NCBI RefSeq assembly: GCF_030163795.1
Contig: NZ_JASJOF010000005.1
Location: 62,001-126,000 of the forward strand
Length of the DNA stretch: 64,000 bases
Reading direction: 5' to 3'
DNA from: Roseicyclus marinus
Lineage (GTDB): Bacteria > Pseudomonadota > Alphaproteobacteria > Rhodobacterales > Rhodobacteraceae
Part shown: piece after piece, positions 36,242-60,236 of the stretch
How positions within the stretch are numbered: position 1 is the first letter of the stretch
How the letters are laid out: each line of letters starts with the position of its first letter
The notes under the pieces: model-generated
What the model was told of the DNA's origin: nothing
What the model saw: only the letters and a program-made list of their open reading frames with translations
The model's database searches: none
Made by a program: the position numbers and the translations under genes

Positions 36242-39200
36242 ATGTCTCTCGCCACCCGTGTCGAAACCGCCGTCCTGCACCGCGACGCGCTGTTTCTTTT
36301 GCTCGATGCCGATGCCGTCAAGGCAGGGGTTTCGATCACCCATGGCAGCCAGCATCTGCCGCTCGAGCGCCTTTCGGCATTGCCCGCGGATCTGAGCGTC
36401 TTTTTCAATCGCAAACCTTTTGACCTGCCTCCAAGTGGCAGCCCGCTTGTCGAAACGCTGCTTGATGGGACAGCAGCGGATACGACAACCGAAGTCATGA
36501 TCGACAAGCTGCCGGATTGGGCGCTCGAGACCGGAAAGACCCTGCAACTGCGGGTCGATCATTTCCAACAACCCCGCGTGATCGACACCGGGGCCACGGT
36601 CACGGTGCCCCCCTCGACCGAGGCGCGGGTCTTTTGCGCGCTGGTGGCCATGCATCGGGCAGAGGCCGAACTCATCATCCGCTTCGACCCAGCCCCCCAA
36701 GGCATGTCGCAAACAGTGGCGGCACCGCTCGACCCCAAGTTCACCGGCGGCCGCCGCAAGAACGGCTATCAGGAGATCACCATTCCCTGCCCCGCCGCCG
36801 ATCATGCGAGGACGGCGCATCTTCTGGTTCGCTATCTGGGCTATCGCGACGACGGGCAGGAGAATTTCCCCTACATCTTCATCGCCAACCCCGAACTTAC
36901 CGGAACCAAGGCACGCCAAACCCTGGTGGAACCCCGGATCAAATCCATCGGCACACCGCCAAATCCCGTTTGGTACAAGGCCATCGTCCCCTCCTTCCGC
37001 CGACCCGACGAGGCCGCGATCACACTCCACCTCGGCGCGGAGAAACTCGACCTCTTCGCGCCCGAGGAAAACGGCGTCACGCTGATCGACGATTACGGCC
37101 ACACGCTGATGCTCAAGGCGGACCGCCCCTGCGACTTCCTGCTTTTTGCCGATGGCCAACCGGTCGACCGCATCCACCTGCGCGATGCCGAAACAGCCAT
37201 TCGCCTGCCCGCGCGGTGCCTGCGTGGCGACATCGTCGATATGTCGATCCGGGATCTGTCCGGCAGCCAGATCTTCCTGTCCCTGCCGGTTCTGGCCCCG
37301 CGCGCCCTGACCCCGCAGGATGTCATCGCACGCGAAACCCGGGCACCCTTTCCCACGGACCTCACGGTGCGCGCCAACCACCGCTACCGCGGCCTGCGCG
37401 CCCATCTCGACCATCCGGTGCCGGGGATGGATGCCGCCTCGCTCGCCACGGCGGCCCGCACGCTCGATTGCTCCTTCGAAACCGTCAAGCTGCACCCGAT
37501 CGCCTTTCCCACCGTGGAAAAGCCGCAGGTCAGCGTGATCATCCCCGCCCACAACAAGGTCGAAGTCACCTATTACTGCCTCAGCGCCCTGTTGGTCGCC
37601 CACAACCGCACCAGTTTCGAGGTGATCCTCGTCGACGATGCCTCGACCGATGCCACCGCCGAGATCGAGAACATCGTCTCGGGCATCCGCGTCATCCGCA
37701 ACGCCGAGCCGCAACGCTTCATCCGCGCCTGCAACGCGGGCGTCGCCGCCGCGCGGGGCGATTACGTCGTCCTCCTGAACAACGACACCGAACCGACCGT
37801 GGGCTGGCTCGACGCGCTCCTCGACGCTTTCGACCGGCTCGACAACGTGGGGCTTGCGGGCGCCAAGCTGCTCTATCCCGATGGCAAGCTTCAGGATGCG
37901 GGCGGCATCGTCTGGGGCAGCGGCAACCCCTGGAACTACGGCAACCGCGCCAGCCCGTGGGAGCCGCGCTTTTCCTACGCACGTCAGGCCGATTACCTGT
38001 CCGGCGCGGCGCTGATGACCACCAAGCGGATCTGGGACGAGGTCGGCGGCCTCTCCTCCTACCTCGAACCGATGTATTTCGAGGACACCGACCTCGCCTT
38101 CAAGATCCGCGACGCGGGCTACAAGACATGGTTCGTCCCCGCCTCCCTCGTCTACCATTTCGAAGGCATGACCAGCGGCACCGATGTCACCCAAGGCTTC
38201 AAGAAACACCAGGAACTGAACCGCCCGAAATTCAAACGCCAATGGGCCCGCGCCTATGCCTCCCACGGCAAGGAAGGTCAAAACCCCGACCTCGAAAAGG
38301 ATCGCGGCATCGTCGGCCGCGTCCTCTTCATCGACTACACCACCCCGCGCGAGGATCGCGATGCCGGCTCCTACGCCGCCCGCCGCGAGATCGAGCTGGT
38401 CAAATCGCTGGGCTACAAGGTCACCTTCCTGCCCCAGAACCTCGCCCATTTCGGCAGCTACACCGACGACCTCCAGAACAGCGGGGTCGAGGTCATCACC
38501 GCCCCCTTCTACCTGTCCCTCGCCGAATTCCTCGAACAGCGCGCCGGCGAATTCGATGCGATCTACATCACCCGCTACTACGTGGCCCAGGACACGATCC
38601 GCCACATCCGCAAACACGCCCCCCGCGCCAAGATCCTGCTCAACAACGCTGATCTGCATTTCCTGCGCGAATTGCGCGCCGCCCTCAGCATGGATGACCC
38701 CTCCCGCCTCGCCGCCATGCGCCGCGTCCGCGACGAAGAGCTTGCGATGATGAAGGCCGCCGACCTCGTCCTCAGCTATAACGAGGTCGAACACGCCATC
38801 ATCGCCTCCCATACCGACGGTCAGGTGCCGGTCATGACCTGCCCGTGGGTCGTCGACATTCCGCCCGAGATCCCGCCACTGAAAGGCCGCAAGGGTCTCT
38901 CCTTCCTCGGCAGCTTCAAACACCACCCCAATGCCGAGGGGGTGACGTGGTTCTGCCGCTCCGTCCTGCCGCTCCTCGAGGGCACGGGCGCGCATCTGAC
39001 GATCTATGGCGCGGGAATGGATGAGACGATCCGCGCGCTCGCCTCCGACACCATCGACCCCGTGGGCTTCGTCGCCGATATGGCCACCGCCTACGACCGC
39101 CACCGCATCTTCGTGGCCCCCCTCCTGTCGGGTGCCGGGATCAAGGGCAAGGTGCTGAGCGCGCTGGCCCATGGCATCCCCACCGTGCTCACCCCCGTCG

Positions 39201-39421
39201 CCGCCGAAGGCATCGGCCTGCGCCACGGCCACGATTGCCTGATCGCCACCACGCCCGAGGATTGGGCCACAGCCATCGCCCGCCTGTCCGAGGATGACGC
39301 GCTCTGGACCGCCATCTCCACCGCCGCCCGCAGCTACGCGGCCGAGCGGTTCTCCTTCGCGCAAGGCCGCGCGGCGATGAAGGCCGCCTTCGAGGCGGTG
39401 GACCTGTTCGGAGCGGGGTGA
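36242..39421 (+). CDS. Two-domain glycosyltransferase (GT2 plus GT4) with novel N-terminal region
   Basis: This 1059-aa protein has three parts. Residues 1-425 match no family known to me and look beta-rich. Residues 428-680 form a GT2 domain (PQVSVIIPAHNKVEVTYYCL, VILVDDASTDAT, VVLLNNDTEPTVGW as the metal-site region, and MYFEDTDLAFKIRDAG). Residues 690-1059 form a GT4-type GT-B domain (RVLFIDYTTPREDRDAGSY, LSFLGSFKHHPNAEGV, APLLSGAGIKGKVLSALAHG). It could add two sugars to a surface polysaccharide. No ribosome-binding site is seen before ATG 36242. A TTGACA at 36178-36183 may be the -35 of its promoter. It starts the polysaccharide region. Confidence 0.88.
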   Translation: MSLATRVETAVLHRDALFLLLDADAVKAGVSITHGSQHLPLERLSALPADLSVFFNRKPFDLPPSGSPLVETLLDGTAADTTTEVMIDKLPDWALETGKTLQLRVDHFQQPRVIDTGATVTVPPSTEARVFCALVAMHRAEAELIIRFDPAPQGMSQTVAAPLDPKFTGGRRKNGYQEITIPCPAADHARTAHLLVRYLGYRDDGQENFPYIFIANPELTGTKARQTLVEPRIKSIGTPPNPVWYKAIVPSFRRPDEAAITLHLGAEKLDLFAPEENGVTLIDDYGHTLMLKADRPCDFLLFADGQPVDRIHLRDAETAIRLPARCLRGDIVDMSIRDLSGSQIFLSLPVLAPRALTPQDVIARETRAPFPTDLTVRANHRYRGLRAHLDHPVPGMDAASLATAARTLDCSFETVKLHPIAFPTVEKPQVSVIIPAHNKVEVTYYCLSALLVAHNRTSFEVILVDDASTDATAEIENIVSGIRVIRNAEPQRFIRACNAGVAAARGDYVVLLNNDTEPTVGWLDALLDAFDRLDNVGLAGAKLLYPDGKLQDAGGIVWGSGNPWNYGNRASPWEPRFSYARQADYLSGAALMTTKRIWDEVGGLSSYLEPMYFEDTDLAFKIRDAGYKTWFVPASLVYHFEGMTSGTDVTQGFKKHQELNRPKFKRQWARAYASHGKEGQNPDLEKDRGIVGRVLFIDYTTPREDRDAGSYAARREIELVKSLGYKVTFLPQNLAHFGSYTDDLQNSGVEVITAPFYLSLAEFLEQRAGEFDAIYITRYYVAQDTIRHIRKHAPRAKILLNNADLHFLRELRAALSMDDPSRLAAMRRVRDEELAMMKAADLVLSYNEVEHAIIASHTDGQVPVMTCPWVVDIPPEIPPLKGRKGLSFLGSFKHHPNAEGVTWFCRSVLPLLEGTGAHLTIYGAGMDETIRALASDTIDPVGFVADMATAYDRHRIFVAPLLSGAGIKGKVLSALAHGIPTVLTPVAAEGIGLRHGHDCLIATTPEDWATAIARLSEDDALWTAISTAARSYAAERFSFAQGRAAMKAAFEAVDLFGAG

Positions 39422-39429
39422 GGGGGGGG

Positions 39430-40116
39430 ATGACCGAACGCACCATCATCCTGCACTACCACCTGTTCAAGAACGCGGGCACATCCGTTGACGCGATCCT
39501 CAAGCGCAACTTTCCGGGCAAATGGGTAACCCGCGAATTTCCCGCCATGGGCGGCAACAACACGCCGCTGGTCGAGGCATGGATACGCGAAACGCCCGAG
39601 GCCATCGCCTATTCCTCCCACACCATGATGGGTCCGATCCCGCAGATCGACGGGGTGCGCGTGATCTCCTTCCTGCTCCTGCGCGACCCCATCGAGCGGA
39701 TCAAATCCGCCTACCGCTTCGAACGCACCCAGACCGCCGACACATGGGGCGCGCGGCTGGCCAAGGAGCATGATTTCGAAGGCTACGTCCGTGCCCGCCT
39801 CGCCCGCCCCGGCGACCGCCAATGCCGGAATTTCCAGACCTACCGGCTGGCCAGCCTGATGCCGGGCGAGGGCACGGAACTCGACCGCGCGAAACGGGCA
39901 CTCAAGGCGCTGAGCGTCGTGGGACGGGTGGAGGCGTTTGACGTGGCGATGAGGCGGTTGGCGGCGGCCTATCCGGGGTTCAGCCATCAGGCGGTGAAGG
40001 CGAATACATCGGCAGGCAAGGATGAGGTGGAGATGACGGAGAAGACGCTCACAACCCTGCAGGAAATGAACAAATTGGACGTAGCGATTATAAGTAGTAT
40101 TGAGCAAAAGCTATGA
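39430..40116 (+). CDS. Sulfotransferase-family protein
   Basis: This 228-aa protein resembles the carbohydrate sulfotransferase family (Sulfotransfer_2). ILHYHLFKNAGTSVDAILKR near the start is the 5'-phosphosulfate-binding loop (PAPS), and FLLLRDPIERIKSAYRFER is the 3'-phosphate-binding motif. It probably transfers sulfate from PAPS to a glycan, in the cytoplasm or at the membrane. ATG 39430 has AGGGGGGG directly upstream and lies 8 bases after the glycosyltransferase. Its last codons, from about 40070, switch abruptly to AT-rich use, and the next gene overlaps its stop as ATGA. The edge of an acquired segment therefore lies within its 3' end. Confidence 0.83.
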   Translation: MTERTIILHYHLFKNAGTSVDAILKRNFPGKWVTREFPAMGGNNTPLVEAWIRETPEAIAYSSHTMMGPIPQIDGVRVISFLLLRDPIERIKSAYRFERTQTADTWGARLAKEHDFEGYVRARLARPGDRQCRNFQTYRLASLMPGEGTELDRAKRALKALSVVGRVEAFDVAMRRLAAAYPGFSHQAVKANTSAGKDEVEMTEKTLTTLQEMNKLDVAIISSIEQKL

Positions 40117-40949
40117 AAGTTCTCGTCATAGGAAATTGCCAAGCCCGGCCATTATCAAGCATTCTCGGAAATGTCCCCGATATTGAAGTTTTACCCCCTA
40201 TAATACTGCACCTCGCTAAAGAAAGTGACCGCCCCGATCATGAAGAAACTTTCAATAAAGCCGATTGGGTTATAGCGCAAGCCACTTCCATCGCCTTCAA
40301 GCCCGAACACCTCCAGTCGATAAAAATTAAAGAAAGATTTGGAGATCGGGCCACTATTTGGCCAAATATATTTTTTCTAGGGCAAACGCCAAGAATAAGA
40401 TATATTACCCACATAAAGCACGGAAGAATCTTTGGGCCATTGGACGCCTATCATGACTTGCAAATACTTAATGATTGGCTATCTCAAAATTCATACTCTT
40501 ATTTGGACCAAAACTTATTCGATTATGATGAAATTTCCAAACGCTCCCTTGCAGACTTGCAGATGAAGGAAGCGATGTGCGACGTAAAGATTTCAGACTT
40601 AATCCTTGAAAACTATAGAAAAGCAGCTTTGTTTTTCACTTTCAACCACCCAACTCAGTGGCTTCTAGAAGCCATGGGGCGCAGAGTCCTCGCAGAAAAA
40701 AGAATAGAGCTAACCAAGTCAACCCAACCAAAGGAAGAGCCACTTGGCAAGATAAGGCCACATAGTATTTTTTCAAAAACTGACTCAAACTATGTTCAAT
40801 ACCACGGAATAGCAACAATTGGACAAGAGCAGGGCAAAAAGAAGATGTATTCCTTCAATTCCCTGCGAGACGAGTTTTTTCTGCACTACGATAGAATATC
40901 TGATAATATATCAAATCCAAATGAAATAATATTCACACCTCAATACTAG
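40113..40949 (+). CDS. WcbI-like polysaccharide-biosynthesis protein
   Basis: This 278-aa protein begins MKVLVIGNCQARPLSSILG, the signature of the WcbI family (putative capsule acetyltransferase or esterase, SGNH-like). The Asn-Cys-Gln and later FNHPTQWLLEAMGRR fit the family. The gene is AT-rich with many ATA, AAA and TTA codons, unlike the GC-rich neighbours. Its ATG overlaps the sulfotransferase stop. Function: probable modification of capsule precursors, inferred from family and context. A gene on the opposite strand begins 11 bases after its stop, so transcription converges here. Confidence 0.78.
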   Translation: MKVLVIGNCQARPLSSILGNVPDIEVLPPIILHLAKESDRPDHEETFNKADWVIAQATSIAFKPEHLQSIKIKERFGDRATIWPNIFFLGQTPRIRYITHIKHGRIFGPLDAYHDLQILNDWLSQNSYSYLDQNLFDYDEISKRSLADLQMKEAMCDVKISDLILENYRKAALFFTFNHPTQWLLEAMGRRVLAEKRIELTKSTQPKEEPLGKIRPHSIFSKTDSNYVQYHGIATIGQEQGKKKMYSFNSLRDEFFLHYDRISDNISNPNEIIFTPQY

Positions 40950-40960
40950 ATAACTGAAGA

Positions 40961-42175
40961 CTAGCTGAACAAAAGATTGAGGTAGTCAGAGGGCATCAAG
41001 CTAGGTTCTGCGACCCAACGCGGATGAACAACAACTGGTCGGCATTTGAGGCTTGAAATATCCTTCACACTCGCTATGCGCACCACCATTTCTTTAGAAA
41101 GAACACCAATCCTAAAATATCTTTGGATAGAGGAATGAGTGCCGCTTCCGATCCAAGAAACACTCTCCATGCTAGAAAGAGAAAATTCTACATTACTTTC
41201 CAACAGCATCTGAGCCAAACCTATCTGGTCATCGAGCATAGCCCCCACGTAATCGAGCCAGCATTCAAAGAATTTGTGATTTTCAACGCCTGATCTGGCA
41301 AAAAAGAATCCGCATCCACAAGTGACACCAAACTTAATACTCGATATCATTGGCATATTGTCCGCAGTCATGAAAAATAAATTTGTATCACTTGGCAGAC
41401 CATTAACGAAAGCATCCACATCCCGAAGCCAAAAGGAATCCAAATCAGAATAGATTACATCCAAGTCAGACTTAAGAAGAATCAAGGCCGCCAATATTTT
41501 TATATACCAAATAAATGAGAGAGATGAGCCATTCCCCGACTTGGAATAAGGCTTAAGCCTCAAGTCAACTTCCGAAAAAGCGACCCTGCGCACCTCAAAA
41601 ATTTCTGAAACCTCGGCTGATGGCACATCCAAGTTAAGAATAATAATTTGCGGCAGACTTTGCTGCGATCTTATCGCGCAATCTAGCCACAATTTAAGAT
41701 TGTCTACATAATTTCTCGTCACCATTAGTAGCACAACTCTCCCACAGCTAGCCTGCCGCGAAGAAAGGGCAACTGATTGAAGTCGCTCTATAAGCTGAAT
41801 TGGGACTGGCTCTGGTGGAAACTCTTGAAAAGCTCGATGGCACAATTCCGCATGAAATTCATGCGCAATGGATATTAAGGAATCCTGCGCCACCTTTTCG
41901 AGCTTTGGCACACGATGAAGGGCAAGTCTTTTTAAGAAGGACCTTGAAAAATAAGAAATACTATCATTATCAGATGAGTCCCTTAGAAGGGAGACTATTT
42001 GAAGAATTGACTCCCGCACATCCGCAATATTTCCCGCTTTTATTTTTTGACCTAATTCCACTAAGGGAACGTAATTTTCGAAGCTACTACTGCTTAATTC
42101 GAATACCTGATCAGAAAATACAGCGTCTCCAACACGATCACACTCTAACCTAAAATTTCTAGACATTATACTCAT
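40961..42175 (-). CDS. DxD nucleotide-sugar transferase-like protein
   Basis: This 404-aa protein carries the metal-binding motif VIYSDLDSFWLRDVDAFV in the middle, a DxD followed by a W typical of nucleotide-diphospho-sugar transferases (GT77-like). The stretch ending at LLMVTRNYVDNLKLWLDCA may form the start of the GT-A core. The N-terminal 130 residues are helical and not recognised. ATG 42175 overlaps the stop of the methyltransferase gene; an ATG three codons later is an alternative. The gene is strongly AT-rich. It probably transfers a sugar onto a surface glycan; the acceptor is unknown. Confidence 0.7.
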   Translation of the reverse strand: MSIMSRNFRLECDRVGDAVFSDQVFELSSSSFENYVPLVELGQKIKAGNIADVRESILQIVSLLRDSSDNDSISYFSRSFLKRLALHRVPKLEKVAQDSLISIAHEFHAELCHRAFQEFPPEPVPIQLIERLQSVALSSRQASCGRVVLLMVTRNYVDNLKLWLDCAIRSQQSLPQIIILNLDVPSAEVSEIFEVRRVAFSEVDLRLKPYSKSGNGSSLSFIWYIKILAALILLKSDLDVIYSDLDSFWLRDVDAFVNGLPSDTNLFFMTADNMPMISSIKFGVTCGCGFFFARSGVENHKFFECWLDYVGAMLDDQIGLAQMLLESNVEFSLSSMESVSWIGSGTHSSIQRYFRIGVLSKEMVVRIASVKDISSLKCRPVVVHPRWVAEPSLMPSDYLNLLFS

Positions 42176-42888
42176 GCCTTAACAAAGATCGCAGTTTTTA
42201 CGCCGCGCATACCAGTCCTATACCCAGCGAAACCGTGGCAAAATGAGATTGACTCCCGAAGCTCAAGAAGCCCCCGCAACTCGTCAGGAAGGACAAGCAT
42301 ATCATCCGAAATAAATCCCATTGCCCACTCAACAAACAACCGCGCTTGAGAGCATTTAGGGCATAAATCCTCAATCGTAGGAGGCTGCCAATGCAGATCC
42401 TCGATTATATACACCCCACCACTATTCATGCTTGGAAATATTTTTAAAAAAGCCATTAGTTGATGATACGACGCATGTGACGCGTCGTCGATTACAAAGT
42501 CAAATGGAGCGTGCTTTTGCAGCAAATTCTCCAGGTCATTCGGATTAGAAGAGTCGCCACGTATGAATGAAAACCTATTAGATTGATAATTCGAAAAATC
42601 CGATATATCGAATCCCACAATTTTTGCCTTTGGCAAAAAATCTAACCACATTTGTATGGAGGGGGGCGCAGTAGTTTCGCGCGAGGCGTCAAAGCCCAGC
42701 TCTGGGCCTCCACGCAGAAGACCGATCTCAAGCAAGCGAACATCTTTATCCTTAAATGGACGCAATATGAAATCGTAAAGCGGCGTATAATTATGCTTCG
42801 CCCCGATCAAATCACCTTTGTCCGAGCCAAACCTATTAGCCAGCGTTGTTAATGAAGCCCCACTTGTGCGCATCTCAATACCACTCAC
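42172..42888 (-). CDS. SAM-dependent methyltransferase of sugar/antibiotic-modifying type
   Basis: This 238-aa protein has the layout NRFGSDKG, HNYTPLYDFILRPF, LLEIGLLRGG, then AKIVGFDIS and FVIDDASHASYHQL. This matches class I methyltransferases found near glycan and antibiotic biosynthesis genes (macrocin/rhamnosyl O-methyltransferase-like). YIIEDLHW is the family's metal-site strand. The start may be GTG 42888, preceded by AAGGGG, or ATG 42873. It is AT-rich like its downstream partner, whose start overlaps its stop. It likely O-methylates a sugar of the surface polysaccharide. Confidence 0.75.
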   Translation of the reverse strand: MSGIEMRTSGASLTTLANRFGSDKGDLIGAKHNYTPLYDFILRPFKDKDVRLLEIGLLRGGPELGFDASRETTAPPSIQMWLDFLPKAKIVGFDISDFSNYQSNRFSFIRGDSSNPNDLENLLQKHAPFDFVIDDASHASYHQLMAFLKIFPSMNSGGVYIIEDLHWQPPTIEDLCPKCSQARLFVEWAMGFISDDMLVLPDELRGLLELRESISFCHGFAGYRTGMRGVKTAIFVKA

Positions 42889-43037
42889 ACCCCTTACCCC
42901 TTACCAAACCCACCCCACACAGGGTGGCAACCTCTTCACCCCGCCCCCGCACCTTGGGGGCGCGGCGCGGTGTGACGAATGCACGACGGATACACTACAG
43001 ATAAACTACACATTCCCTACAGGAAAACGACGCGGTT

Positions 43038-44468
43038 TTACCCTCTGCCATACCCATCTTCGTACCGGATGATGTCATCCTCACCCAGGTACCCGCCCGT
43101 CTGCACCTCGATCAGCACCATGGGCAGTTTTCCGGGATTTTCCAACCGGTGTGTGGCCCCCAGCGGGATGTAGACCGACTGGTTTTCGCTCACCAGCCGC
43201 ACCTCGGCGTCCACCGTCACCCGCGCCGTGCCCTGCACCACGATCCAATGCTCCGCCCGGTGGTGATGGCTCTGCAAACTCAGGCTCCCGCCCGGGTTCA
43301 CGTGGATCCGCTTGACCTGGAATCTGTCAGCCAAAACAAGGCTTTCGAACCATCCCCAGGGTCTGTGATCCTTGGGAAATTCCGTCGCCTGACGCGCGCC
43401 CGACGCCTTCAGCGCCACCACCGCCAGCCGCAGGTCCTGCGCCCGCTCCATCGGCGCGACCAGCACCGCATCGGGCATCGCCACCGCGATCATGTTCTCC
43501 AGCCCCAGCCCGATCAGCACCTGCCCCTCGCCCTCGGCCCGGAGCAGCGTATCGCGGCACTCGATGGCATGAACCGCCCCCGACGTCGCCACGCCTTGCG
43601 CATCCGGCCCCATCTCACGCCAGACCGTCTCCCACCCGCCAAGATCCGACCAGCCGCCGTCGAAGGGCACCACGCTCAACCCCTCGGCCCGCTCCATCAC
43701 CGCGTAATCAATGGATATTTCCTCGGCCTCCTCCCAAGGCTCCGCCGCCAGACGCAAGAACCCGAGGTCCGGCCGCGCCCCCTCCAGCGCCGCGCGCACC
43801 GGCCCCACCAGCCCCGGCGCATGCCGGTCGAAAGCCGCGAGCAGCACATCGGCCCGCGCCATGAAAATCCCCGCGTTCCACAGGAACCGCCCCTCGGCCA
43901 GCATCGCCTCCGCCCGGTCGCGGTCGGGTTTCTCCACGAACCGGCGCAGCGGCGCAGCCACCCCCGCCTGCCCCGCGCCCTCCAGTTCAAGGTAACCATA
44001 GCCGGTCTCGGGCCGGTCGGGCGTGATGCCGAAGGTCACGATGCGCCCCTCCGACGCAGCCTCCGCCGCTACGCCCAGCGCGGCGTGAAACGCTGGAACG
44101 TCGCGCACCACGTGATCGGACGGCGCGATCAGCACCAGCGCCTGCGGATCGGCCTCCGCCACCCGCATCACCGCCGCCAGCACCGCAGGCGCGGTGTTGC
44201 GCGCCGCGGGTTCGAGGATCACGGCGGCGGGGTCGGCCCCCACTTCGGCCATCTGCTGCGTGACGATGAAACGGAATTCCGCTCCCGTCACCACCACGGG
44301 CCGGCCAAACCCCTTGCCCCAAACGCGACGGACCGAAGCCTGGAACAGGCTTTCGTCCCCGACCAATTTGGAAAATTGCTTGGGATAACTGCGCCGCGAC
44401 AGGGGCCAAAGCCGGGTCCCCGATCCGCCGCACAGCAAGATCGGCGTGATCGCAACCTTACCGGCCAT
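43038..44468 (-). CDS. manC: Mannose-1-phosphate guanylyltransferase / mannose-6-phosphate isomerase
   Basis: This 476-aa bifunctional-type enzyme makes GDP-mannose. The nucleotidyltransferase half has ILLCGGSGTRLWPLSRRSYP, APSDHVVRD and RFVEKPDRDRAEAML. The C-terminal cupin (PMI) half has HPRPWGWF-like DHRPWGWFESLV, then SLSLQSHHHRAEHWIVV and the end LIEVQTGGYLGEDDI. ATG 44468 was chosen because GGAGAAAGAGA lies directly upstream; a start 18 bases earlier is less supported. GDP-mannose feeds GDP-sugar-dependent transferases of the neighbouring cluster. The upstream TPR-glycosyltransferase gene lies 107 bases away on the same strand. Confidence 0.95.
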   Translation of the reverse strand: MAGKVAITPILLCGGSGTRLWPLSRRSYPKQFSKLVGDESLFQASVRRVWGKGFGRPVVVTGAEFRFIVTQQMAEVGADPAAVILEPAARNTAPAVLAAVMRVAEADPQALVLIAPSDHVVRDVPAFHAALGVAAEAASEGRIVTFGITPDRPETGYGYLELEGAGQAGVAAPLRRFVEKPDRDRAEAMLAEGRFLWNAGIFMARADVLLAAFDRHAPGLVGPVRAALEGARPDLGFLRLAAEPWEEAEEISIDYAVMERAEGLSVVPFDGGWSDLGGWETVWREMGPDAQGVATSGAVHAIECRDTLLRAEGEGQVLIGLGLENMIAVAMPDAVLVAPMERAQDLRLAVVALKASGARQATEFPKDHRPWGWFESLVLADRFQVKRIHVNPGGSLSLQSHHHRAEHWIVVQGTARVTVDAEVRLVSENQSVYIPLGATHRLENPGKLPMVLIEVQTGGYLGEDDIIRYEDGYGRG

Positions 44469-44575
44469 TCTCTTTCTCCCCTGCACGCCTCATGGCCCGC
44501 AGGGGGCCATCTCGTCACCATCGCCCGGCGCTCCGGACCTTGTAAAGCCGCGATACCTCTCGCGTCGGGCCAAGG

Positions 44576-46927
44576 TCAATCCACCCCGCCCGATCTCGTG
44601 CCCAAAGGCCAGCACGGATGGAGGACTTGGCGCAACCGGCTCGCCGGATACAGGCACGGATCCGCACCGCCATCGGCCAAAGAGCGCGCCACCACCCGCG
44701 TCATCAGGCCAGGCCCGGTCTTGAACCAGCGATGCCCGTTCTCTCCCGACAGGCAGGCCTGCGTCGCAGCCTCCAGCGCGGCGGTGATCACGCTGTGACC
44801 GGGCGGGGCGATCATCGCATCAAAGCTGACGCCTCCCGTCCCTTCGAGGAAGAGGGTCGCGCCGCCCCCGTCGGCCAAGTCATCGATCCCGCCCCCCGGC
44901 ACCTGTTCGGCGGCACACATCATCCCGCCCTCGACCAACAGAACCGCCAGCGCCAGCAGGTCGGCGCGCTGCTCGGCATCCTGCGCCTGACGACAGGCGC
45001 GGGCGATGTCGTGGCCCAAGGCCTGCCCGATCCAGTCCATCGCACCAGCAGGTTCCCAGAACCGTACCGCCCGCCTTGTCGCGCTCCGCCAACTATTGGC
45101 CATCCGGCCGACCACATCCGGCGGCGGAACGCCCCCGCGCCAGATCAGGTGCAGGGCACCGGGCACCTCGGCCTGCGGACGCGTCCCGTCCTGCATCGGA
45201 TCAACTGCGACCAGCGCCGCGCGCGCCGCCAGAAAGAACTCCGGTTCCAGCCCCCCAGAACCCTCCGGCCAATCGGCCGCAACCGCGGCAAGGACGCGCG
45301 CCTCGTTCAACAGGCTCCCCAGCCGCGTGGCGCGCGGGCGGCAGATCAACGCCTCTGCCTCGGGCCCATCCCCGACCGACAGACGGGCGAGACTCGCCTC
45401 CGCCCCCTGCAAATCCCCACTCAAAAGCTGCGCCTCGATCAGATCCATCGGGGGAGGCGCATCCTGCCGCCCGGCACAGGCCGCAACAGCCGCGGCCGGA
45501 TCGCCCTCGGCCAGCGCGGCGGCAACGCGGCAGGCCAATCGCGCCGCCTCGGGCGCCTGCCGCCAAGGCCCGTCAAGCAGCGCCGCCACCTGCTCGGCCG
45601 ATCCGCAGGCAATCATCGCTTCGGTCGCCCGGGTCAGGATCGCGCCATCGCCAGGCCAACGGCGCACCGCAGCGCGCAAATACCGCGCGGCCAATCGCGC
45701 CTTGCCCGCCGCCAACAAAACCCGGCCCAGCCTTTCGCATGCCTCCGCATCGCGCCGCACCACGCGCCGCGACCGCGCGTGATCGAGCGCGGCGAAAGCT
45801 CCGTCCAGCACCAGCAACCGCTCAAGGTCAAAGGCCAACCGGTCCGCCTCGGGCCAGACCTGCGCGGCACAGGCCGCCACCAGCCGTTCCGCCTCGACCC
45901 CGCGCCCCGCCTGCCAAAGCCGGTCCAACAGACGCACGGCCACGAACCACGGCAGGTCCGAGTGCCCTTCCACCTGCGCCAGCCAGACCTCAACCGCGCC
46001 CTTCCCAGTGGCCAGGGCCACCTCCAGCTCGACAAAGGCATCGCCCGTCTCAAGGACCGCATCCGCCGCCGCCTCTTGTGACGGATCGAGCCGTGACAGC
46101 GCCTCTTGCGCGGCGAAAGACACATCGCCCTGACCTATCGCCAAGGCGTCCGACCACAACTCACGCGCGGCCGCCACCTCACCGCGCTCTTCCGCGATCT
46201 CGGCCCGTAGCGCCAGAAACCATGACGCAAAGGCTGACCCCTCGGGCGCGCTCAGGCACAAATCCACGGCCCGCGCGCCATCGCCCGCCATTCGAAACGC
46301 CTGCGCCGCGCGCAGAATGATCTCGGGATGATCAGGGTGGTGGGCCACTGCCGCCTCGGCTGCGACACGGGCAGCCTCGGCATCGCCTTGCGTAAGCGCG
46401 CCCTCGATCAGGGCCAGATGCGCGACGGCCTCGCCGGGGGATCGCGCGATCAGCCGCGCACAAAACTCCCCCGCCTCGGTCACGCGGCCCGCCGATCTGT
46501 GCAGCGCGATGGCAAAGACCAGATCCGCCTCGTCCATCCCCGCGACAGGCTGATCGCACAGGATGGCCAGCGCCGCCCCGGGACCCTCCGCCGCCTCGGC
46601 GGCCTCGGCGGCCTTGCGGCGCAGCAACCGATCCTCCGGTAAATAACCCAAGGCCTCGCGCCCCAGCGCCAGCGCGCCCACGGCATCGCCCCGCTCCATG
46701 GCAATGCCGATCAGGCCGATCCACGCCCAAGGATGTGCCGGGTTCTGCGCCAGAAGCTGGCGGAACAACGGCGCGGCCGCCGCCCCCTCGCCCAGTTCGG
46801 CCAGCCCACCCGCCACGCCAAAGCGCAGCGCGGCGATCCAGCCCTCCGGCCTGTCGACATCGCCCAACAGCCCGGCAAGGTCGCGCAAGACACCAGCCAA
46901 AGGCCCGGTATCCGACGACCCCGCCAC
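44576..46927 (-). CDS. TPR-repeat protein with degenerate glycosyltransferase domain
   Basis: This 783-aa protein is built from helical TPR-like repeats over about residues 15-560 (Ala-rich pairs such as FRQLLAQNPAHPWAWIGLIG and AAEAAVAHHPDHPEIILRAA). Residues 591-783 resemble the sugar-transferase domain of the OCH1/capsular DxD group (ALHLIWRGGVPPPDVVGRMA, ANSWR, ADLLALAVLLVEGG, KTGPGLMT). At the position of the expected DxD (after VEGG, residues 671-675) the sequence reads CAAEQ, so the metal-binding motif is missing. It may be a non-catalytic scaffold, or may use other residues. The GTG start at 46927 follows the amidase stop by 4 bases. Confidence 0.72.
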   Translation of the reverse strand: MAGSSDTGPLAGVLRDLAGLLGDVDRPEGWIAALRFGVAGGLAELGEGAAAAPLFRQLLAQNPAHPWAWIGLIGIAMERGDAVGALALGREALGYLPEDRLLRRKAAEAAEAAEGPGAALAILCDQPVAGMDEADLVFAIALHRSAGRVTEAGEFCARLIARSPGEAVAHLALIEGALTQGDAEAARVAAEAAVAHHPDHPEIILRAAQAFRMAGDGARAVDLCLSAPEGSAFASWFLALRAEIAEERGEVAAARELWSDALAIGQGDVSFAAQEALSRLDPSQEAAADAVLETGDAFVELEVALATGKGAVEVWLAQVEGHSDLPWFVAVRLLDRLWQAGRGVEAERLVAACAAQVWPEADRLAFDLERLLVLDGAFAALDHARSRRVVRRDAEACERLGRVLLAAGKARLAARYLRAAVRRWPGDGAILTRATEAMIACGSAEQVAALLDGPWRQAPEAARLACRVAAALAEGDPAAAVAACAGRQDAPPPMDLIEAQLLSGDLQGAEASLARLSVGDGPEAEALICRPRATRLGSLLNEARVLAAVAADWPEGSGGLEPEFFLAARAALVAVDPMQDGTRPQAEVPGALHLIWRGGVPPPDVVGRMANSWRSATRRAVRFWEPAGAMDWIGQALGHDIARACRQAQDAEQRADLLALAVLLVEGGMMCAAEQVPGGGIDDLADGGGATLFLEGTGGVSFDAMIAPPGHSVITAALEAATQACLSGENGHRWFKTGPGLMTRVVARSLADGGADPCLYPASRLRQVLHPCWPLGTRSGGVD

Positions 46928-46931
46928 GCGA

Positions 46932-47780
46932 TCAACCCATGCTCACGGGCTCGATCCGGTCAGGCGGCGCGATGCCCCATGCCGGCACCTGCGCCCGTGC
47001 CCGCCCCACCGCCCCAAGATCGAGCGTCACGACCCGCAGCGCCGGGGCCGCATCGCCCAGATCGGCCAGCACCGCGCCCCATGGGTCGACGGCCAGCGCA
47101 TGGCCATAGGTCTGCCGCCCGTCCGCGTGATGCCCGGCCTGCGCGGCGGCCAGCACGAAGGCCCCGGTCTCGATCGCCCGCGCGCGCAAAAGCACCTCCC
47201 AATGCGCCCGTCCGGTCGGCACGGTAAAGGCCGAGGGGATGAACATCACCACCGCTCCCGCCTGCGCATAGGCGCGGTAGAGATAGGCAAACCGCAGGTC
47301 GTAGCAGATGCTCAACCCCATCGGGCCCCATGGCGTCTGCGCGATCACGGCTTGCGCACCGGGTGCGAACCGCTTGGATTCCCCGATCGGCGCCTGACCT
47401 TCCAACGCGACGTCGAACAGGTGGATCTTGTCGTACTCCGCCACGATGGCGCCTGAGGCGTCGATCAGCGTCGAATGGTTCAGGAACCGCCCGTCCGGCC
47501 CAAGCACAGGCGTGGACCCGGTGTGGATCCAAAGCCCATGCCGCGGCGCGATCTCGCAGCAGGCCGCGATGAAGGGATCATCACCCGCCGCCACGACCTG
47601 TCGCCGCGATGTCTCGGGGTTGCGGTTCATCAGCCCCGCAACCTCGGGCAGCGCCAACATCTCGGCCCCCTCGCCCGCCGCCTCGGCGGCCAGATCGGAG
47701 ACCGTGGCGATATTGGCCTCATGCGTATCGGACGAACACATCTGCGCCAGCGCCACGCGCAGGCTGCCCCGCTCGCTCAT
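46932..47780 (-). CDS. Nitrilase-superfamily (carbon-nitrogen hydrolase) amidase
   Basis: This 282-aa enzyme has the Glu-Lys-Cys triad of the superfamily: ALPEVAGLMNRNPE (Glu), EYDKIHLFDV (Lys) and GLSICYDLRFAYLYR (Cys). It most resembles the Nit1/NIT-type amidases that repair deaminated glutathione. The E-LMNRNPE and CYDLRF segments are typical, though substrate choice cannot be proved. ATG 47780 with GAGGG upstream is chosen over a GTG two codons earlier. It is immediately before the TPR-glycosyltransferase gene, perhaps by chance, since Nit genes commonly sit in housekeeping contexts. Confidence 0.9.
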   Translation of the reverse strand: MSERGSLRVALAQMCSSDTHEANIATVSDLAAEAAGEGAEMLALPEVAGLMNRNPETSRRQVVAAGDDPFIAACCEIAPRHGLWIHTGSTPVLGPDGRFLNHSTLIDASGAIVAEYDKIHLFDVALEGQAPIGESKRFAPGAQAVIAQTPWGPMGLSICYDLRFAYLYRAYAQAGAVVMFIPSAFTVPTGRAHWEVLLRARAIETGAFVLAAAQAGHHADGRQTYGHALAVDPWGAVLADLGDAAPALRVVTLDLGAVGRARAQVPAWGIAPPDRIEPVSMG

Positions 47781-47877
47781 CGGCACGTCCCTCGCCCTAC
47801 TGATACCACCATGATCGCCTCGCCCGCCGGGACTTGCGCCAGCCTAGCCAAGACCGCCCCACCTTGCCAAGCGCCGC

Positions 47878-48519
47878 TCACGAGTCCGGAACGCGCGCGA
47901 TCAGCCGCTCCACCTCCGGGCCCAGCGCCTCAACGATCAGGGCAACGCCCGCCGCATTGGGATGGATCCCATCGGCCTGCATATAGGCCGTGAGTGCGCC
48001 TTGCCGGTCCGCCTCCGCCGCTGCGGACAGGGGGGCCAGAAAGCTCTCCACATGCAGCGCGCCATAGGCTTCGGCCAATTCCGGATACATCGCATCGAAA
48101 GCCGCCTGATACTCCGGCCCGTAATTGCCCGGCGCGGTCAGCCCGACCAGCAGAACCGGAACCCCCGCCGTCTGTGCCGCCTGCAAGATACCCTCAAGGT
48201 TCGCGCGGCTCACCTCGGGCGGAATGGCCCGCAACAGGTCGTTGCCCCCAAGCGCCACGATCATCGCATCCACATCGGGCGTCAGCGTCCAACCCACCCG
48301 CGCCAATCCGCCTGCCGTCGTATCCCCCGAAACGCCCGCGTTCAGAATGGCCACGTCATGGCCGCGCGCCATCAGCCAATCCTGCAACTGCGCGGTGAAC
48401 CCCTCTTCCTGCATCAAGCCGTAGCCTTGCGTCAGGCTGTCGCCCAGCGCCGCGATCGTCACCTCTTCGGCGGCGGCAGGCAGCACCAGAGCCAGCGACA
48501 GAACCGCCGCCTTGCCCAT
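47878..48519 (-). CDS. tesA: Arylesterase / acyl-CoA thioesterase I (SGNH hydrolase)
   Basis: This 213-aa periplasmic hydrolase starts with a signal peptide (MGKAAVLSLALVLPAAA, cleavage before EEVTIAALG). The SGNH blocks are visible: Ser in AALGDSLTQGYGL, Gly in NAGVSGDTTAGGLAR, Asn in VALGGNDLLRAI, and Asp-His in QADGIHPNAAGV. TesA hydrolyses acyl-CoA and aryl esters. ATG 48519 was chosen from the signal peptide. An in-frame ATG at 48573 is possible, but it would make the gene overlap the divergent ABC ATPase start. It is divergent from the ABC genes, the usual tesA-ybbA arrangement. Confidence 0.92.
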   Translation of the reverse strand: MGKAAVLSLALVLPAAAEEVTIAALGDSLTQGYGLMQEEGFTAQLQDWLMARGHDVAILNAGVSGDTTAGGLARVGWTLTPDVDAMIVALGGNDLLRAIPPEVSRANLEGILQAAQTAGVPVLLVGLTAPGNYGPEYQAAFDAMYPELAEAYGALHVESFLAPLSAAAEADRQGALTAYMQADGIHPNAAGVALIVEALGPEVERLIARVPDS

Positions 48520-48571
48520 GCTGCCCAAGGCCCCATATGCCTGACACAGAAGTAAACCGAGGCGTTCAGTC

Positions 48572-49267
48572 ATGTCCGATCCCGTTCTTTCCCTCACCGA
48601 CGCCCGCCTGTCGCTCGACGGCAACGCCGGCCGCGTCGACATCTTGCATGGCATCACCATGCAGGTGGACAAGGGGGAAACCGTCGCACTCACGGGGCCA
48701 TCGGGGTCGGGCAAATCGTCTCTCCTCATGCTCATGGGCGGTCTTGAACGCGCCACGGGGGGCGAGGTCCACGCGCTCGGCCGCGATCTGACCGCGATGA
48801 CCGAGGATCAACTCGCCCGCTTCCGCAGGGACCATATGGGGGTGGTTTTCCAATCCTTCCACCTGATCCCGACCATGACCGCGCTGGAAAACGTGGCGAC
48901 GCCGCTGGAATTGGCGGGCCATGCCGATGCCTTCGACCGGGCCGAGGCGGAATTGGCCGCCGTGGGCCTTGCATCTCGGGCGCACCACTATCCCAGCCAG
49001 ATGTCGGGTGGCGAACAGCAGCGCGTGGCGCTTGCCCGCGCCGCCGCCCCGCGCCCCGCGATCCTTCTGGCCGATGAGCCCACCGGCAATCTGGATGGCG
49101 CGAATGGTCAGGCGATCATGGACATGCTCTTCGGCCTGCGCGACCGGCATGGCGCCACGCTCGTCCTCGTGACCCACGCGCCCGAACTTGCCCGCCGCTG
49201 CGACCGCGAAATCCGCCTTCGCGACGGACGGCTCGACACCGACACCCTGCGCGAGGCCGCTGAATGA
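48572..49267 (+). CDS. ABC transporter ATPase (YbbA/LolD-like)
   Basis: This 231-aa ATPase has Walker [16 protein letters not shown], the signature [15 protein letters not shown], Walker [15 protein letters not shown] and the H-loop VLVTHAP. The Q-loop is in [18 protein letters not shown]. The MacB/LolD/YbbA group drives extrusion or lipoprotein-type transport rather than import. ATG 48572 is the only sensible start and abuts the divergent tesA region. It overlaps the permease gene by 4 bases (ATGA). Confidence 0.93.
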
Positions 49268-51801
49268 GCGTCGCCCCCCCGATGTTTCTGCGCATCGCAC
49301 GGCGTGAACTCCGCGGCGGGCTCAAGGGGTTCCGCATCTTCCTCGCCTGCCTTGCCCTTGGCGTCGCGGCCATCGCCGCCGTCGGTTCGGTGCGCGAGGC
49401 GATCGAGGCCGGTCTGACCCGCGAGGGCGCGGTGATCCTCGGCGGCGATGCCGAGATGTCCTTTACCTACCGCTTCGCCGATGAGGCCGAACGCGCCTTC
49501 ATGGGCGGCATCGCCAGCCGCGTCTCCGAAACCGTCGATTTCCGCTCCATGGTCGTCGTCGACCGCGACGGCACGCTTGAACGTGGCCTGACACAGGTCC
49601 GCGGCGTCGACAGCGCCTATCCCCTCTATGGCTCTGTAAACCTCGATCCGCCGATCCCGCTCGAACAGGCACTGGCCACCATCGACCACCCCGGCGCGGT
49701 CATGGATCCGGTCCTGATCGACCGTCTGGCGCTTGAGGTCGGGGATATCTTCCGCCTCGGAACACAGGATTTCGAACTCCGCGCCGCGATGCTGACGGAA
49801 CCTGACGGGGCCTCGGGTGGCTTCGGCCTCGGACCGCGCACCATCGTGACGCTCGACGGGCTGGCGGGCTCAAACCTCCTCGCGCCCGGCACGCTTTATG
49901 AAACCCAGTACCGGCTCGCCCTGCCCCCCGGCAGCGACCTGCAAACCGCCGAGACCGAGGCCCGCGCGCGGTTCGAAGATACCGGAATGCGCTGGCGCGA
50001 CAGCCGCAACGGCGCACCCGGCGTGCAGGACTTCATCGACCGGATCGGGGCCTTTCTGGTGCTCGTCGGACTGGCGGGGCTGGCCGTGGGCGGCGTCGGC
50101 ATCTCGTCCGCGGTGCGCGCCTATCTGGACGGCAAGATCGAAACCATCGCCACGCTCAAGACCCTTGGCGCCGAAAGCCGCACGATCTTTGCCGCCTATT
50201 TCGCCCAGATCGGCCTTTTGACGCTGGTGGGCCTTGCGCTTGGCCTGACGCTGGGCGCGCTGTTACCGCTTGCGCTGTCGCCGATCATCGCGGCGCAATT
50301 GCCCGTGCCCATCGCCTTTGCCATCTACCCCGCCCCCTTGGCAGAGGCGGCGCTTTACGGGGCGCTCACCGCGCTGATCTTTACCCTCTGGCCGCTCGCC
50401 CGCACCGAACAGGTGCGGGCCGCTGCCCTGTTCCGCGATGCGTCAGGCCCCCAACGCGGCTGGCCCAGACCGATCTGGACCGCCACGATCCTCGGCCTTG
50501 CCGCAACGCTTGTCGGGCTGGCGACATGGCTTTCGGGCATCCCCCGGCTCGCCATGGGAACAGCGGCGGGCATACTGGGCTCGCTTGTCCTCCTGACGCT
50601 TTCGGCCATTGCCATCCGGGCATTGTCCCGGCGGCTGTCGCGCGCCCGCGCGCTGCGGGGCCGCACGGCGCTGCGCACGGCGCTTGGCGCGGTCGGCGGA
50701 CCGGGGTCCGAGGCGACAAGTGTCGTCCTCTCCCTCGGCCTCGGCCTCGCGGTTCTGGCCGCCGTGGGTCAGATCGACTCAAACCTTCGCGCCTCGATCC
50801 AGCGCGACCTGCCGACCGTCGCCCCTTCGTATTTCTTCGTCGATATCCAGCCCGACCAGCTGCAGCCCTTCCTCGACCGCGTGACCACCGATCCCGCCGT
50901 CAGCCGGGTAGAGACCGCGCCGATGCTGCGCGGTGTCATCACGCGTATCAACGACGAGCGCGCCCGCGACGTGGCGGGCGATCACTGGGTGATCCGGGGC
51001 GACCGGGGCGTGACCTACACCACCACCGCCCCCCCGCCCGAGGAAATCACCCAAGGCCAATGGTGGCCCGACGATTATGCCGGCCCGCCCCTCGTGGCCT
51101 TCGCCGCCGAGGAAGCGGCCGAGATCGGCCTTGCCATCGGCGACACCCTCACCGTCAACATCCTCGGCCGCGACATCGAGGCGGAAATCGCCGCCTTCCG
51201 CGAGGTGAGCTTTGAGAACGCCGGGATCGGCTTCGTCCTGACCATGTCGCAAAATGCGTTGGCCGGCGCACCGCACACCCATATCGCCACCGTCTATGCC
51301 GATGTGGATGCTGAAGCCGCGATCCTGCGCGACGTGGCGGGCGATGCCCCCAACATCACCGCGATCCGCGTCCGCGACGCGCTCGACCGCGTGGCGGATG
51401 CGTTGCGCAGCCTTGCCGCCGCAACTTCCTACGGCGCGGCGGCGACGCTTCTGACCGGTTTCATCGTCCTGATCGGGGCTGCGGCAGCGGGCGAACGCGG
51501 CCGCGTCTTCGAGGCCGCGGTGATGAAGACGCTCGGCGCCAGCCGTGCGGGCATCCTCGCCAGTTTCGCGCTCCGCTCCGCGATATTGGGCGCGGCGGCG
51601 GGGATCGTGGCCATTCTGGCCGGGGCCTTGGGCGGCTGGGCGGTCATGACCTTCGTGATGGAAAGCCCCTATCGATTCGAGCCGGTCTCGGCCACCGCCA
51701 TCATCCTCGGCGGCGCGCTGGCGACGCTCCTTTCGGGGCTGGCCTTCGCATGGCGTCCGCTGGCCACGCGGCCCGCCCGAGTGTTGCGCGCACGCGACTG
51801 A
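49264..51801 (+). CDS. ABC transporter permease (YbbP-like, FtsX family)
   Basis: This 845-aa permease has about ten membrane segments. There is one N-terminal helix (FLACLALGVAAIAAVG), a first FtsX-type block (VLVGLAGLAVGGVGISSAV, GKIETIATLKTLGAESRTI), a middle set, and a C-terminal FtsX block (FEAAVMKTLGASRAGILASF). Large periplasmic domains lie between. With the preceding ATPase it forms a YbbA-YbbP-type exporter, linked in other bacteria to the adjacent tesA. The transported molecule is unknown. Confidence 0.9.
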   Translation: MSVAPPMFLRIARRELRGGLKGFRIFLACLALGVAAIAAVGSVREAIEAGLTREGAVILGGDAEMSFTYRFADEAERAFMGGIASRVSETVDFRSMVVVDRDGTLERGLTQVRGVDSAYPLYGSVNLDPPIPLEQALATIDHPGAVMDPVLIDRLALEVGDIFRLGTQDFELRAAMLTEPDGASGGFGLGPRTIVTLDGLAGSNLLAPGTLYETQYRLALPPGSDLQTAETEARARFEDTGMRWRDSRNGAPGVQDFIDRIGAFLVLVGLAGLAVGGVGISSAVRAYLDGKIETIATLKTLGAESRTIFAAYFAQIGLLTLVGLALGLTLGALLPLALSPIIAAQLPVPIAFAIYPAPLAEAALYGALTALIFTLWPLARTEQVRAAALFRDASGPQRGWPRPIWTATILGLAATLVGLATWLSGIPRLAMGTAAGILGSLVLLTLSAIAIRALSRRLSRARALRGRTALRTALGAVGGPGSEATSVVLSLGLGLAVLAAVGQIDSNLRASIQRDLPTVAPSYFFVDIQPDQLQPFLDRVTTDPAVSRVETAPMLRGVITRINDERARDVAGDHWVIRGDRGVTYTTTAPPPEEITQGQWWPDDYAGPPLVAFAAEEAAEIGLAIGDTLTVNILGRDIEAEIAAFREVSFENAGIGFVLTMSQNALAGAPHTHIATVYADVDAEAAILRDVAGDAPNITAIRVRDALDRVADALRSLAAATSYGAAATLLTGFIVLIGAAAAGERGRVFEAAVMKTLGASRAGILASFALRSAILGAAAGIVAILAGALGGWAVMTFVMESPYRFEPVSATAIILGGALATLLSGLAFAWRPLATRPARVLRARD

Positions 51802-51861
51802 CGGCGCGCCCGCCTGTACGACCCCCTTGCCATGGCTGCAACCAGCGCGCACCAGTCGATC

Positions 51862-52659
51862 ATGCTCCGGTTCCTCACCTCGCTTTTCGGGCGCAAGCCC
51901 GGCTCCGCCGCCGCAGGTGCCGCCGCACCCGACCTGCCGCGCCCGGAGACCACGACCTATGTCGTGGGCGACCTGCATGGGCGCGCCGACCTCCTTGAGC
52001 TGATCCTCGAACTGATCGACGCCCACATCGGCGGCAGCGGTGCCCGCGATCCGCAACTGGTCTTCATCGGCGATTACATCGACCACGGCCCCGACAGTGC
52101 GGGCGTGCTCACGCGGCTGCGCGAATTGACCCGCGACTTTCCCGAGAACGTGACCTGCCTGATGGGCGACCACGAACGGATGCTGCTCGATTTCCTCGCC
52201 GATCCCGCCCAGCGCGGTCCGCGCTGGCTGCGCGCGGGCGGGGCTGAGACGCTCACGGGCTACCGTATCGACGCCGATGACCTGACCGCCAACGCCCCGC
52301 CCGAAGCCTGGGACAAGGCGGCCGCGCGGCTGGCCGCCGCCCTGACGCAAGAGACCCGCGATTGGCTCGAGGGTCTGCCGCTCTCGTGGTCCTCGGGCAA
52401 TCTCTGGGCGGTTCACGCCGGCGCGGACCCCTCGCGCCCGATGGACGACCAGACCGCGCGCGTCCTTCTATGGGGCCATCCCGAATTCGACAGCGCCCCG
52501 CGCGGCGACGAGGCGTGGATCGCCCATGGCCATGTCCCCCGCGACACGCCCGAGGCCCGGGATGGCCGTATCGCGCTCGACACCGGCGCATGGTCCACCG
52601 GCCGTCTGACCGCCGCTGCGATCAAGCCAGACGGCACCCACGCCTTTCTTCAGACCTGA
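51862..52659 (+). CDS. PPP-family metallophosphoesterase with altered active-site motifs
   Basis: This 265-aa protein belongs to the PPP serine/threonine phosphatase superfamily. The first metal motif is VVGDLHG (residues 34-40). The second reads GDYIDHG (70-76) where GDxxDRG is usual, and the third reads GDHE (102-105) where GNHE is usual. The usual Arg and metal-binding Asn are thus His and Asp. Later metal His residues occur in WAVHAGAD and WIAHGHVPR. It may therefore differ in substrate or metal choice, for instance toward a nucleotide. ATG 51862 (MLRFLTSLFG) is preferred; an ATG at 51832 is possible. It is convergent with mrpG. Confidence 0.8.
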   Translation: MLRFLTSLFGRKPGSAAAGAAAPDLPRPETTTYVVGDLHGRADLLELILELIDAHIGGSGARDPQLVFIGDYIDHGPDSAGVLTRLRELTRDFPENVTCLMGDHERMLLDFLADPAQRGPRWLRAGGAETLTGYRIDADDLTANAPPEAWDKAAARLAAALTQETRDWLEGLPLSWSSGNLWAVHAGADPSRPMDDQTARVLLWGHPEFDSAPRGDEAWIAHGHVPRDTPEARDGRIALDTGAWSTGRLTAAAIKPDGTHAFLQT

Positions 52660-52668
52660 CGGCCCGGC

Positions 52669-52998
52669 TCAGCGCCGCAGGTTTTCCTCGGCCCCCGGTT
52701 CGATCTTCGTGTTCCACAAGGGCACGCCGTCGCGGAACGCCGCACGCCCGATCATGTGGGCGGCCACCGGCGCGGTCAGAAGCAGGAACAGGATCGCGGC
52801 GAGCGCCCGCGTGATCGTCGCGCCATCCCCGAAATAGATCGCCCCGGCACCCAGGATCAGTCCGGACCCCAGCGTGCCCGCCTTGGTCGAGGCATGCATC
52901 CGGATCAACACATCGGGCAGCCGCAAGATGCCCAAGCCCGCGACAAAGCAGAAGAACCCGCCCAGAACCACCAACGCGGCCATCAGCCATTCAATCAT
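52669..52998 (-). CDS. mrpG: Na+/H+ antiporter subunit G
   Basis: MrpG (109 aa) has three membrane helices (WLMAALVVLGGFFCFVAGLG, SGLILGAGAIYFG, ALAAILFLLLTAPVAAHMIG). LRLPDVLIRMHASTKAGTLG, between the first two, is the family signature. ATG 52998 overlaps the end of mrpF by 8 bases. It ends the seven-gene mrp operon, which excretes Na+ or other cations in exchange for protons and supports pH homeostasis. The small convergent gap (9 bases) to the phosphatase gene leaves no room for a long terminator. Confidence 0.92.
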   Translation of the reverse strand: MIEWLMAALVVLGGFFCFVAGLGILRLPDVLIRMHASTKAGTLGSGLILGAGAIYFGDGATITRALAAILFLLLTAPVAAHMIGRAAFRDGVPLWNTKIEPGAEENLRR

Positions 52999-53302
52999 TG
53001 CCCTGCTCCTCACCCTTGGCGGGCGCTTCGGCCCGCGCCTTGCGCCGCTCCACGAAGCGCGCCAGCGCGACGGTGGCCAAAAACCCCACCAGCGCCAACA
53101 CGATCGCCACGTCGATAAAGGCCGTGTCGTCGGACAAGATCGCGTAAAGCCCGCAGAAACTGACCAACAGGACCGTCATCATGTCCAGCGCCACGACCCG
53201 GTCCGACAGGGTCGGGCCGATGACCAACCGGACAAAGGCGAACACGACCCCCAGCATGACGAGGATGAAACTCAGATCGACTGCGGTTGCCAGAATATCC
53301 AT
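52991..53302 (-). CDS. mrpF: Na+/H+ antiporter subunit F
   Basis: MrpF (103 aa) has three helices and the family motif VRLVIGPTLSDRVVALDMMT, followed by YAILSDDTAFIDVAIVLALVGFLATVALAR. The charged tail (ERRKARAEAPAKGEEQ) is cytoplasmic. ATG 53302 is 5 bases after the mrpE stop; a GTG at 53311 overlapping that stop as GTGA is an alternative start. It overlaps mrpG at its end. Operon position F before G matches the standard order. Confidence 0.92.
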   Translation of the reverse strand: MDILATAVDLSFILVMLGVVFAFVRLVIGPTLSDRVVALDMMTVLLVSFCGLYAILSDDTAFIDVAIVLALVGFLATVALARFVERRKARAEAPAKGEEQGND

Positions 53303-53307
53303 CGTAT

Positions 53308-58484: not shown

Positions 58485-58490
58485 CTGTCC

Positions 58491-59186: not shown

Positions 59187-59264
59187 GGCCCCAAAGCCCC
59201 TTTCGCGGGACACCAGCTAGGGTGACATGGATTATAGGTCCAATCGAAACGAAACTGGTCTTTC

Positions 59265-59279: not shown

Positions 59280-59290
59280 AAGACGGCCCC

Positions 59291-60211: not shown

Positions 60212-60236
60212 TACGACAGCTGCGGAAAAAGAGACC

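Follow-up and report, generated by a model that had tools for sequence, protein, structure and literature searches.

We analysed a 64,000-nucleotide stretch of Roseicyclus marinus contig NZ_JASJOF010000005.1 (the window; its genome is G000 below), in which an AT-rich island lies between a sulfotransferase-like gene and manC. We consider it very probable that the island is an exchangeable cassette of a surface-polysaccharide locus, sitting in a slot whose content varies throughout the genus, and that it was swapped by way of homology in the flanks. Relatives hold sulfotransferases, methyltransferases, GT61 family genes, WcbI or a DegT gene with a hexapeptide transferase in this slot, which argues for allelic replacement of a glycan-modification cassette. 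The locus comprises the following features, in window coordinates; G005 is the nearest relative that has the locus, and G007 is another member of the genus.

36242–39421, forward strand: glycosyltransferase (GT) of 1,059 amino acids with GT2 and GT4 domains (Pfam); conserved left flank.
39418–40116, forward strand: sulfotransferase-like gene, containing the left recombination edge.
40037–40064, no strand: left breakpoint, from where DNA homology to G005 stops (40037) to where the GC content changes (40064).
40113–40949, forward strand: WcbI family protein, putative acyl/acetyltransferase (PF18588, 105.4 bits; cut-off 29.2).
40961–42175, reverse strand: nucleotide-diphospho-sugar transferase-like gene (NT; PF03407, Nucleotid_trans, 34 bits; cut-off 22).
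42172–42888, reverse strand: sugar O-methyltransferase-like gene (MT), by phmmer similarity.
42874–43037, reverse strand: leader between the manC stop and MT, the right breakpoint zone; part of it is common to G007 and G005.
43038–44486, reverse strand: ManC, mannose-1-phosphate guanylyltransferase/mannose-6-phosphate isomerase (TIGR01479, 547 bits; cut-off 373); conserved right flank.
44576–46927, reverse strand: TPR-repeat protein adjoining manC (Pfam TPR_19), its position conserved by synteny.

The GC content falls from about 0.66 to about 0.42 within 40064–42908 and then rises again. Two-state maximum-likelihood segmentation placed the edges at these two positions with a score of 346, compared with 23 or less elsewhere in the window, and the only 1-kb bins with a GC content below 0.60 (3 of 64) are those that make up 40001–43000. 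Codon use follows the same course: GC content at third codon positions (GC3) is 0.80–0.85 in the nine flanking genes scored (0.83 in manC) and 0.41, 0.40 and 0.46 in the WcbI, NT and MT genes, respectively; within the sulfotransferase it is 0.84 over codons 1–205 and 0.59 over the last 27. The AT-rich island is real, far beyond chance. An earlier note on this DNA had placed a shift in base and codon use in the end of the sulfotransferase and a return near 42890, in agreement with both the segmentation and the GC3 drop, and the sliding-window scan that it proposed gave a single low-GC stretch (0.39–0.50 at about 40000–42900 in 500-bp windows, against about 0.61–0.74 in the rest of the window). 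It had also counted three genes inside and no mobility gene, and the island's open reading frames indeed include no integrase or transposase.

Comparison with G005 located the replacement. The two genomes run collinear for some 52 kb, with a DNA identity near 87% (82.9% over 11824–19177, 87.0% over 19204–40037, 86.8% over 42993–61473 and 85.8% over 62150–64000), and the largest non-homologous stretch between them is 40038–42992 (2,955 bp), where G005 has about 3.4 kb of other genes: a hexapeptide transferase, an unknown AT-rich gene and a DegT aminotransferase. On the left, the sulfotransferase DNA is 93.8% identical to G005 up to the breakpoint and unrelated beyond it, apart from a weak tail motif; at the protein level its body is 93% and its tail 46% identical. 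Homology ends at 40037 and GC changes at 40064, so the left edge falls within the sulfotransferase, as the earlier note had it. On the right, composition changes at the start of MT (42908) and homology returns at 42993, in the leader next to the 3′ end of manC; this breakpoint lies outside any gene. Relative to G005, the window carries a replacement bounded by these breakpoints. Separately, about 680 bp at 61473–62150 is unmatched in the otherwise collinear G005 stretch, and the TPR protein gene is far more diverged than the genes around it (DNA identity to G005 only 0.67–0.81).

Alternative cassettes occupy the same place across the genus. The sample comprised 13 genomes including G000. GT was found in 10 of the 12 others, and in nine of these GT and the manC end lie on one stretch, G003 being split over contigs; G006 and G008 (78% and 73% complete) gave no GT match. 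The orthologues of GT are 65–90% identical, and the order GT, variable slot, manC is kept in all nine genomes with both ends on one stretch. What lies between differs. G012 has a GT61 gene and a methyltransferase; G011 a putative second sulfotransferase (by eye, with no Pfam match), a PF04488 sugar-binding-region glycosyltransferase, WcbI and a methyltransferase; G004 a sulfotransferase, a GT61 gene and a methyltransferase; G010 a sulfotransferase and an unclassified gene; G009 a GT61 gene, a sulfotransferase and a methyltransferase; G007 a sulfotransferase and a methyltransferase; G002 a sulfotransferase plus two genes that Pfam did not match; and G001 a pyruvyltransferase-like gene (below cut-off) and a methyltransferase. 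The island DNA had no match in the slot of any genus relative examined, and searches of the genus slots with the island proteins (tblastn) gave a single match, WcbI in G011, which is 40% identical and in the opposite orientation. Slot GC content is lower than that of the flanks in 8 of 10 genomes, the exceptions being G010 and G002; the right flank of G001 was left out of this comparison because its value rests on a contig end.

Comparison with close relatives had been proposed in the earlier note, and it yields alternative cassettes at the orthologous place, most clearly in G005. Relatives with the same AT-rich genes at the divergence of housekeeping genes would have spoken against an exchange; instead, NT was found in none of the 248 family genomes but its own, and the slots differ. 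The sulfotransferase itself has probably been exchanged too, at a deeper level, since its types are dispersed over the GT tree: three changes are needed for type A (as few in 61 of 500 shuffles) and three for type B (155 of 500). The window-type sulfotransferase is also kept in G005, G012 and G011.

One relative appears to preserve traces of earlier swaps. Reading from manC, the G007 slot begins with a leader and 40 bp that repeat the manC end; a second leader and the start of a methyltransferase follow, then another copy of the manC end, of 93 bp, and finally the present methyltransferase. Over 120 bp the second leader is 78% identical to that of the window, and among the 13 genus genomes only G000 and G007 have a certain 20-base motif of the leader, in both within the slot. 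The truncated methyltransferase start consists of first codons of the type found in G002 and locus L060. G009, the sister of G007 (100% support), has the first manC-end copy in common with it. In a control that compared 150-bp bins with 11 slots, the last manC bin recurred in 2 of 11, and eight other manC bins and nine GT bins in none; the window itself has no manC-tail copy. These copies are best read as donor ends brought in with cassettes, which together with the truncated methyltransferase start would record older swaps, two events at most and in one lineage. Further repeats were seen in the locus family: at their left side, the slots of G010 and G003 contain tandem repeats of the 3′ end of the sulfotransferase, now decayed (L027 4100–5000; L033 1–1360), and L065 has a degraded manC 3′ remnant in its slot (14643–14857), its contig ending before any full manC is reached. 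The open reading frames beyond that remnant resemble, by eye, a serine recombinase.

From the breakpoints and these scars we deduce recombination as the probable agent. The homology arms would be the conserved GT and sulfotransferase on one side and manC on the other; DNA from the same locus of another bacterium would recombine within the 3′ end of the sulfotransferase gene and within or close to that of manC, and everything between the crossovers would be replaced. Exchange of a glycan-modification cassette through flanking genes, as suggested in the earlier note, is supported by the G005 breakpoints and the alternative cassettes, with the amendment that the right edge lies in the leader and inside no gene.

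A variant that we regard as possible, if rather less likely than not to apply, is homology-facilitated illegitimate recombination, in which long homology in the GT and sulfotransferase would be paired with microhomology of a few bases near the manC end and duplicated manC tails would be left behind. In G007 the older methyltransferase start meets the manC tail at a partly common sequence, GGCAA-CTGC, and the two tail copies, of about 40 and 93 bp, are unequal, as those of a fixed att site would not be. However, this pattern was seen in G007 and G009 only, the window is without such a copy, and the parental sequence at the G007 join is itself reconstructed from G002 and L060.

Insertion of a mobile element (a transposon, an integrative element or phage-borne genes) with no replacement is very unlikely. 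The sharp composition edges would suit it, and GT is found next to WcbI or manC on some plasmids, which shows that these can be carriers of genes of this kind. However, the site in G005 is not empty but filled by other genes at the same breakpoints, the island's open reading frames include no recombinase or transposase, and 39300–43300 contains only four two-copy direct-repeat families (16–20 bp, 75–94% identical), which look like chance. We rejected an integrative mobile element as a candidate because neither a recombinase gene among the island's open reading frames nor flanking repeats were found, and a phage or plasmid origin of NT because it had no match among plasmids, phages and viral contigs. 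It is equally improbable that the genes are ancestral to the genus and were lost or replaced in relatives, the AT-rich DNA being old and only biased in composition: of 63 loci from other bacteria, 9 have WcbI near GT, which makes this type of gene an old one in the locus family, but GC3 shows no amelioration towards the neighbouring genes, the sudden shift in the sulfotransferase tail is the mark of a join, and NT was found only in its own genome, 1 of 248 in the family and 1 of 398 in the phylum.

Delivery of a replaceable cassette in the form of short linear DNA, whether through a gene transfer agent (GTA) or through transformation, is possible on the gene content of the genome. G000 has a GTA-like cluster with terminase, portal, protease, capsid and tail genes, as well as ComEC and DprA family members, and GTA_TIM was found in 9 of the 13 genus genomes. 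In the parts of the account available, RcGTA carries about 4.5 kb and its load is integrated by allelic replacement (PMC9690577); the replaced segment of 2,955 bp lies within such a fragment. As an observation on the cluster itself, about 160 residues interrupt the GTA_TIM domain of a 1,496-residue GTA tail protein (G000:C1:51776-53149, in L122/L123) in most genus members, whereas the domain is unbroken in G012 and in one of the two G004 copies.

Several observations weigh against a swapped cassette. G010 and G003, with near-identical GT, have a common slot (82–93% DNA identity) and G002 has part of that of G010; from the slot common to G010 and G003 it follows that the slot is stable over short times. 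Only two sister genomes have the manC-tail copies, which could have arisen by internal duplication. No donor for the cassette was found, and NT has no relative in any collection searched. The presence of GTA genes is not proof that a GTA carried the cassette. Finally, the seven proteins from GT to the TPR protein, scanned with Pfam and NCBIfam, include no flippase, polymerase or ABC export component; for this reason we class the locus as one that works like a serotype locus, and not as a capsule or O-antigen cluster.

The source of the island genes was sought more widely. Among 248 family genomes, counting G000, NT was found in one (itself), WcbI in 3 and MT in 51, the best foreign MT match being 52–54% identical over part of the protein only; the 398 phylum genomes added no relative of NT. 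For the sulfotransferase tail, no donor closer than G005 was found among the matches listed from the 63 GT loci. These loci are mostly from Rhodobacterales. The sulfotransferase adjoins GT in 36 of the 58 with at least 1.5 kb downstream, and ManC lies near GT in 28 of the 63 (partial copies counted, as for WcbI). In Pacificoceanicola, relatives of the G005 DegT (70%) and hexapeptide (65%) genes lie near the same GT, pointing to this locus in other genera as a source of cassettes. GT 49–67% identical to that of the window also occurs in records titled Verrucomicrobia, Maritalea and Cyanobacteria/Cyanobium (L060, L065, L101, L105 and L106); L060 and L065 look like mislabelled Roseicyclus, and L101, L105 and L106 like contamination or transfer.

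The predicted products fit a GDP-mannose-dependent surface glycan. The WcbI protein matches PDB 4bqn (E = 1.2e-5); a Burkholderia WcbI protein binds coenzyme A, according to the portion of that study available (PMC4104973). NT is a probable glycosyltransferase. MT resembles demethylmacrocin O-methyltransferase 8ia9 (E = 1.1e-23) and methyltransferase 3ssm (E = 5.9e-23) by phmmer over the catalytic domain, and its IDD-SH and IED motifs align with those of these two enzymes, whose substrates are macrolide sugars; its true start is probably the ATG at 42873, judging from G007. Single-sequence structure prediction gave models too poor to use (mean predicted local distance difference test score of 41 for NT and 36 for MT). 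The sulfotransferase scored 20.7 bits against Sulfotransfer_2 (PF03567), under the cut-off of 22, and its L065 relative 24.2, over it. Most likely, NT would add a sugar that MT O-methylates and WcbI acylates, with altered decoration of the glycan as the outcome. GT has a variable portion of its own: residues 1–300 (36242–37150) are 46–57% identical to G005 and the remainder 85–94%, with a sharp change near residue 300, and this N-terminal part may be either a second variable module or a fast-evolving domain.

The locus shows the features of a variable serotype-like locus, the same flanks around different central glycan genes and a deviating central GC content, and it resembles recombining polysaccharide loci as a small cassette slot. 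In the passages available on region 2 of the E. coli group 3 capsule (kps) locus (PMC10433991), central glycan genes likewise vary between constant flanks, with low GC content, recombination via common genes and related clusters on plasmids. Unlike kps, the slot here spans about 2–4 kb with two to four modification genes, is flanked by GT/sulfotransferase and manC, and has no export genes among those scanned. A further parallel is seen in Rhodobacteraceae plasmid loci of Sulfitobacter sp. W027 and Paracoccus aminovorans, in which the same large GT lies near manC with WcbI, GT61 or a sulfotransferase; those two are plasmid-borne, one with the replication initiator RepA and rfb genes, whereas the window locus sits in a long collinear stretch common to a 3.55-Mb contig of G005. 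Allelic replacement by RcGTA, as far as the source consulted in part describes it (PMC9690577), is similar in fragment size, in homologous recombination and in leaving no mobility genes, with GTA and uptake genes present in G000. A limited search of open-access text found no paper describing the slot.

We conclude that the slot very probably represents a compact, genus-wide case in which marine Rhodobacterales exchange glycan cassettes; its breakpoints are resolved to within tens of bases, and one relative appears to preserve earlier swaps in layers. According to the part of the report available, RcGTA, the GTA of R. capsulatus, binds capsular polysaccharide and a strain without capsule genes cannot receive it (PMC10218006). 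Together with the GTA cluster and the uptake genes, this opens to experiment the question of whether the genes that determine the GTA receptor are themselves spread by GTAs. From the same binding we raise, as a long shot, a self-reinforcing exchange site, at which a GTA would trade a GTA-sized cassette that alters the polysaccharide on which the GTA docks; if so, each swap would alter the next DNA donors and which phages bind, and the manC-tail scars would be a readable record of swaps. Exchange of surface decoration bears on phage resistance in abundant marine bacteria.

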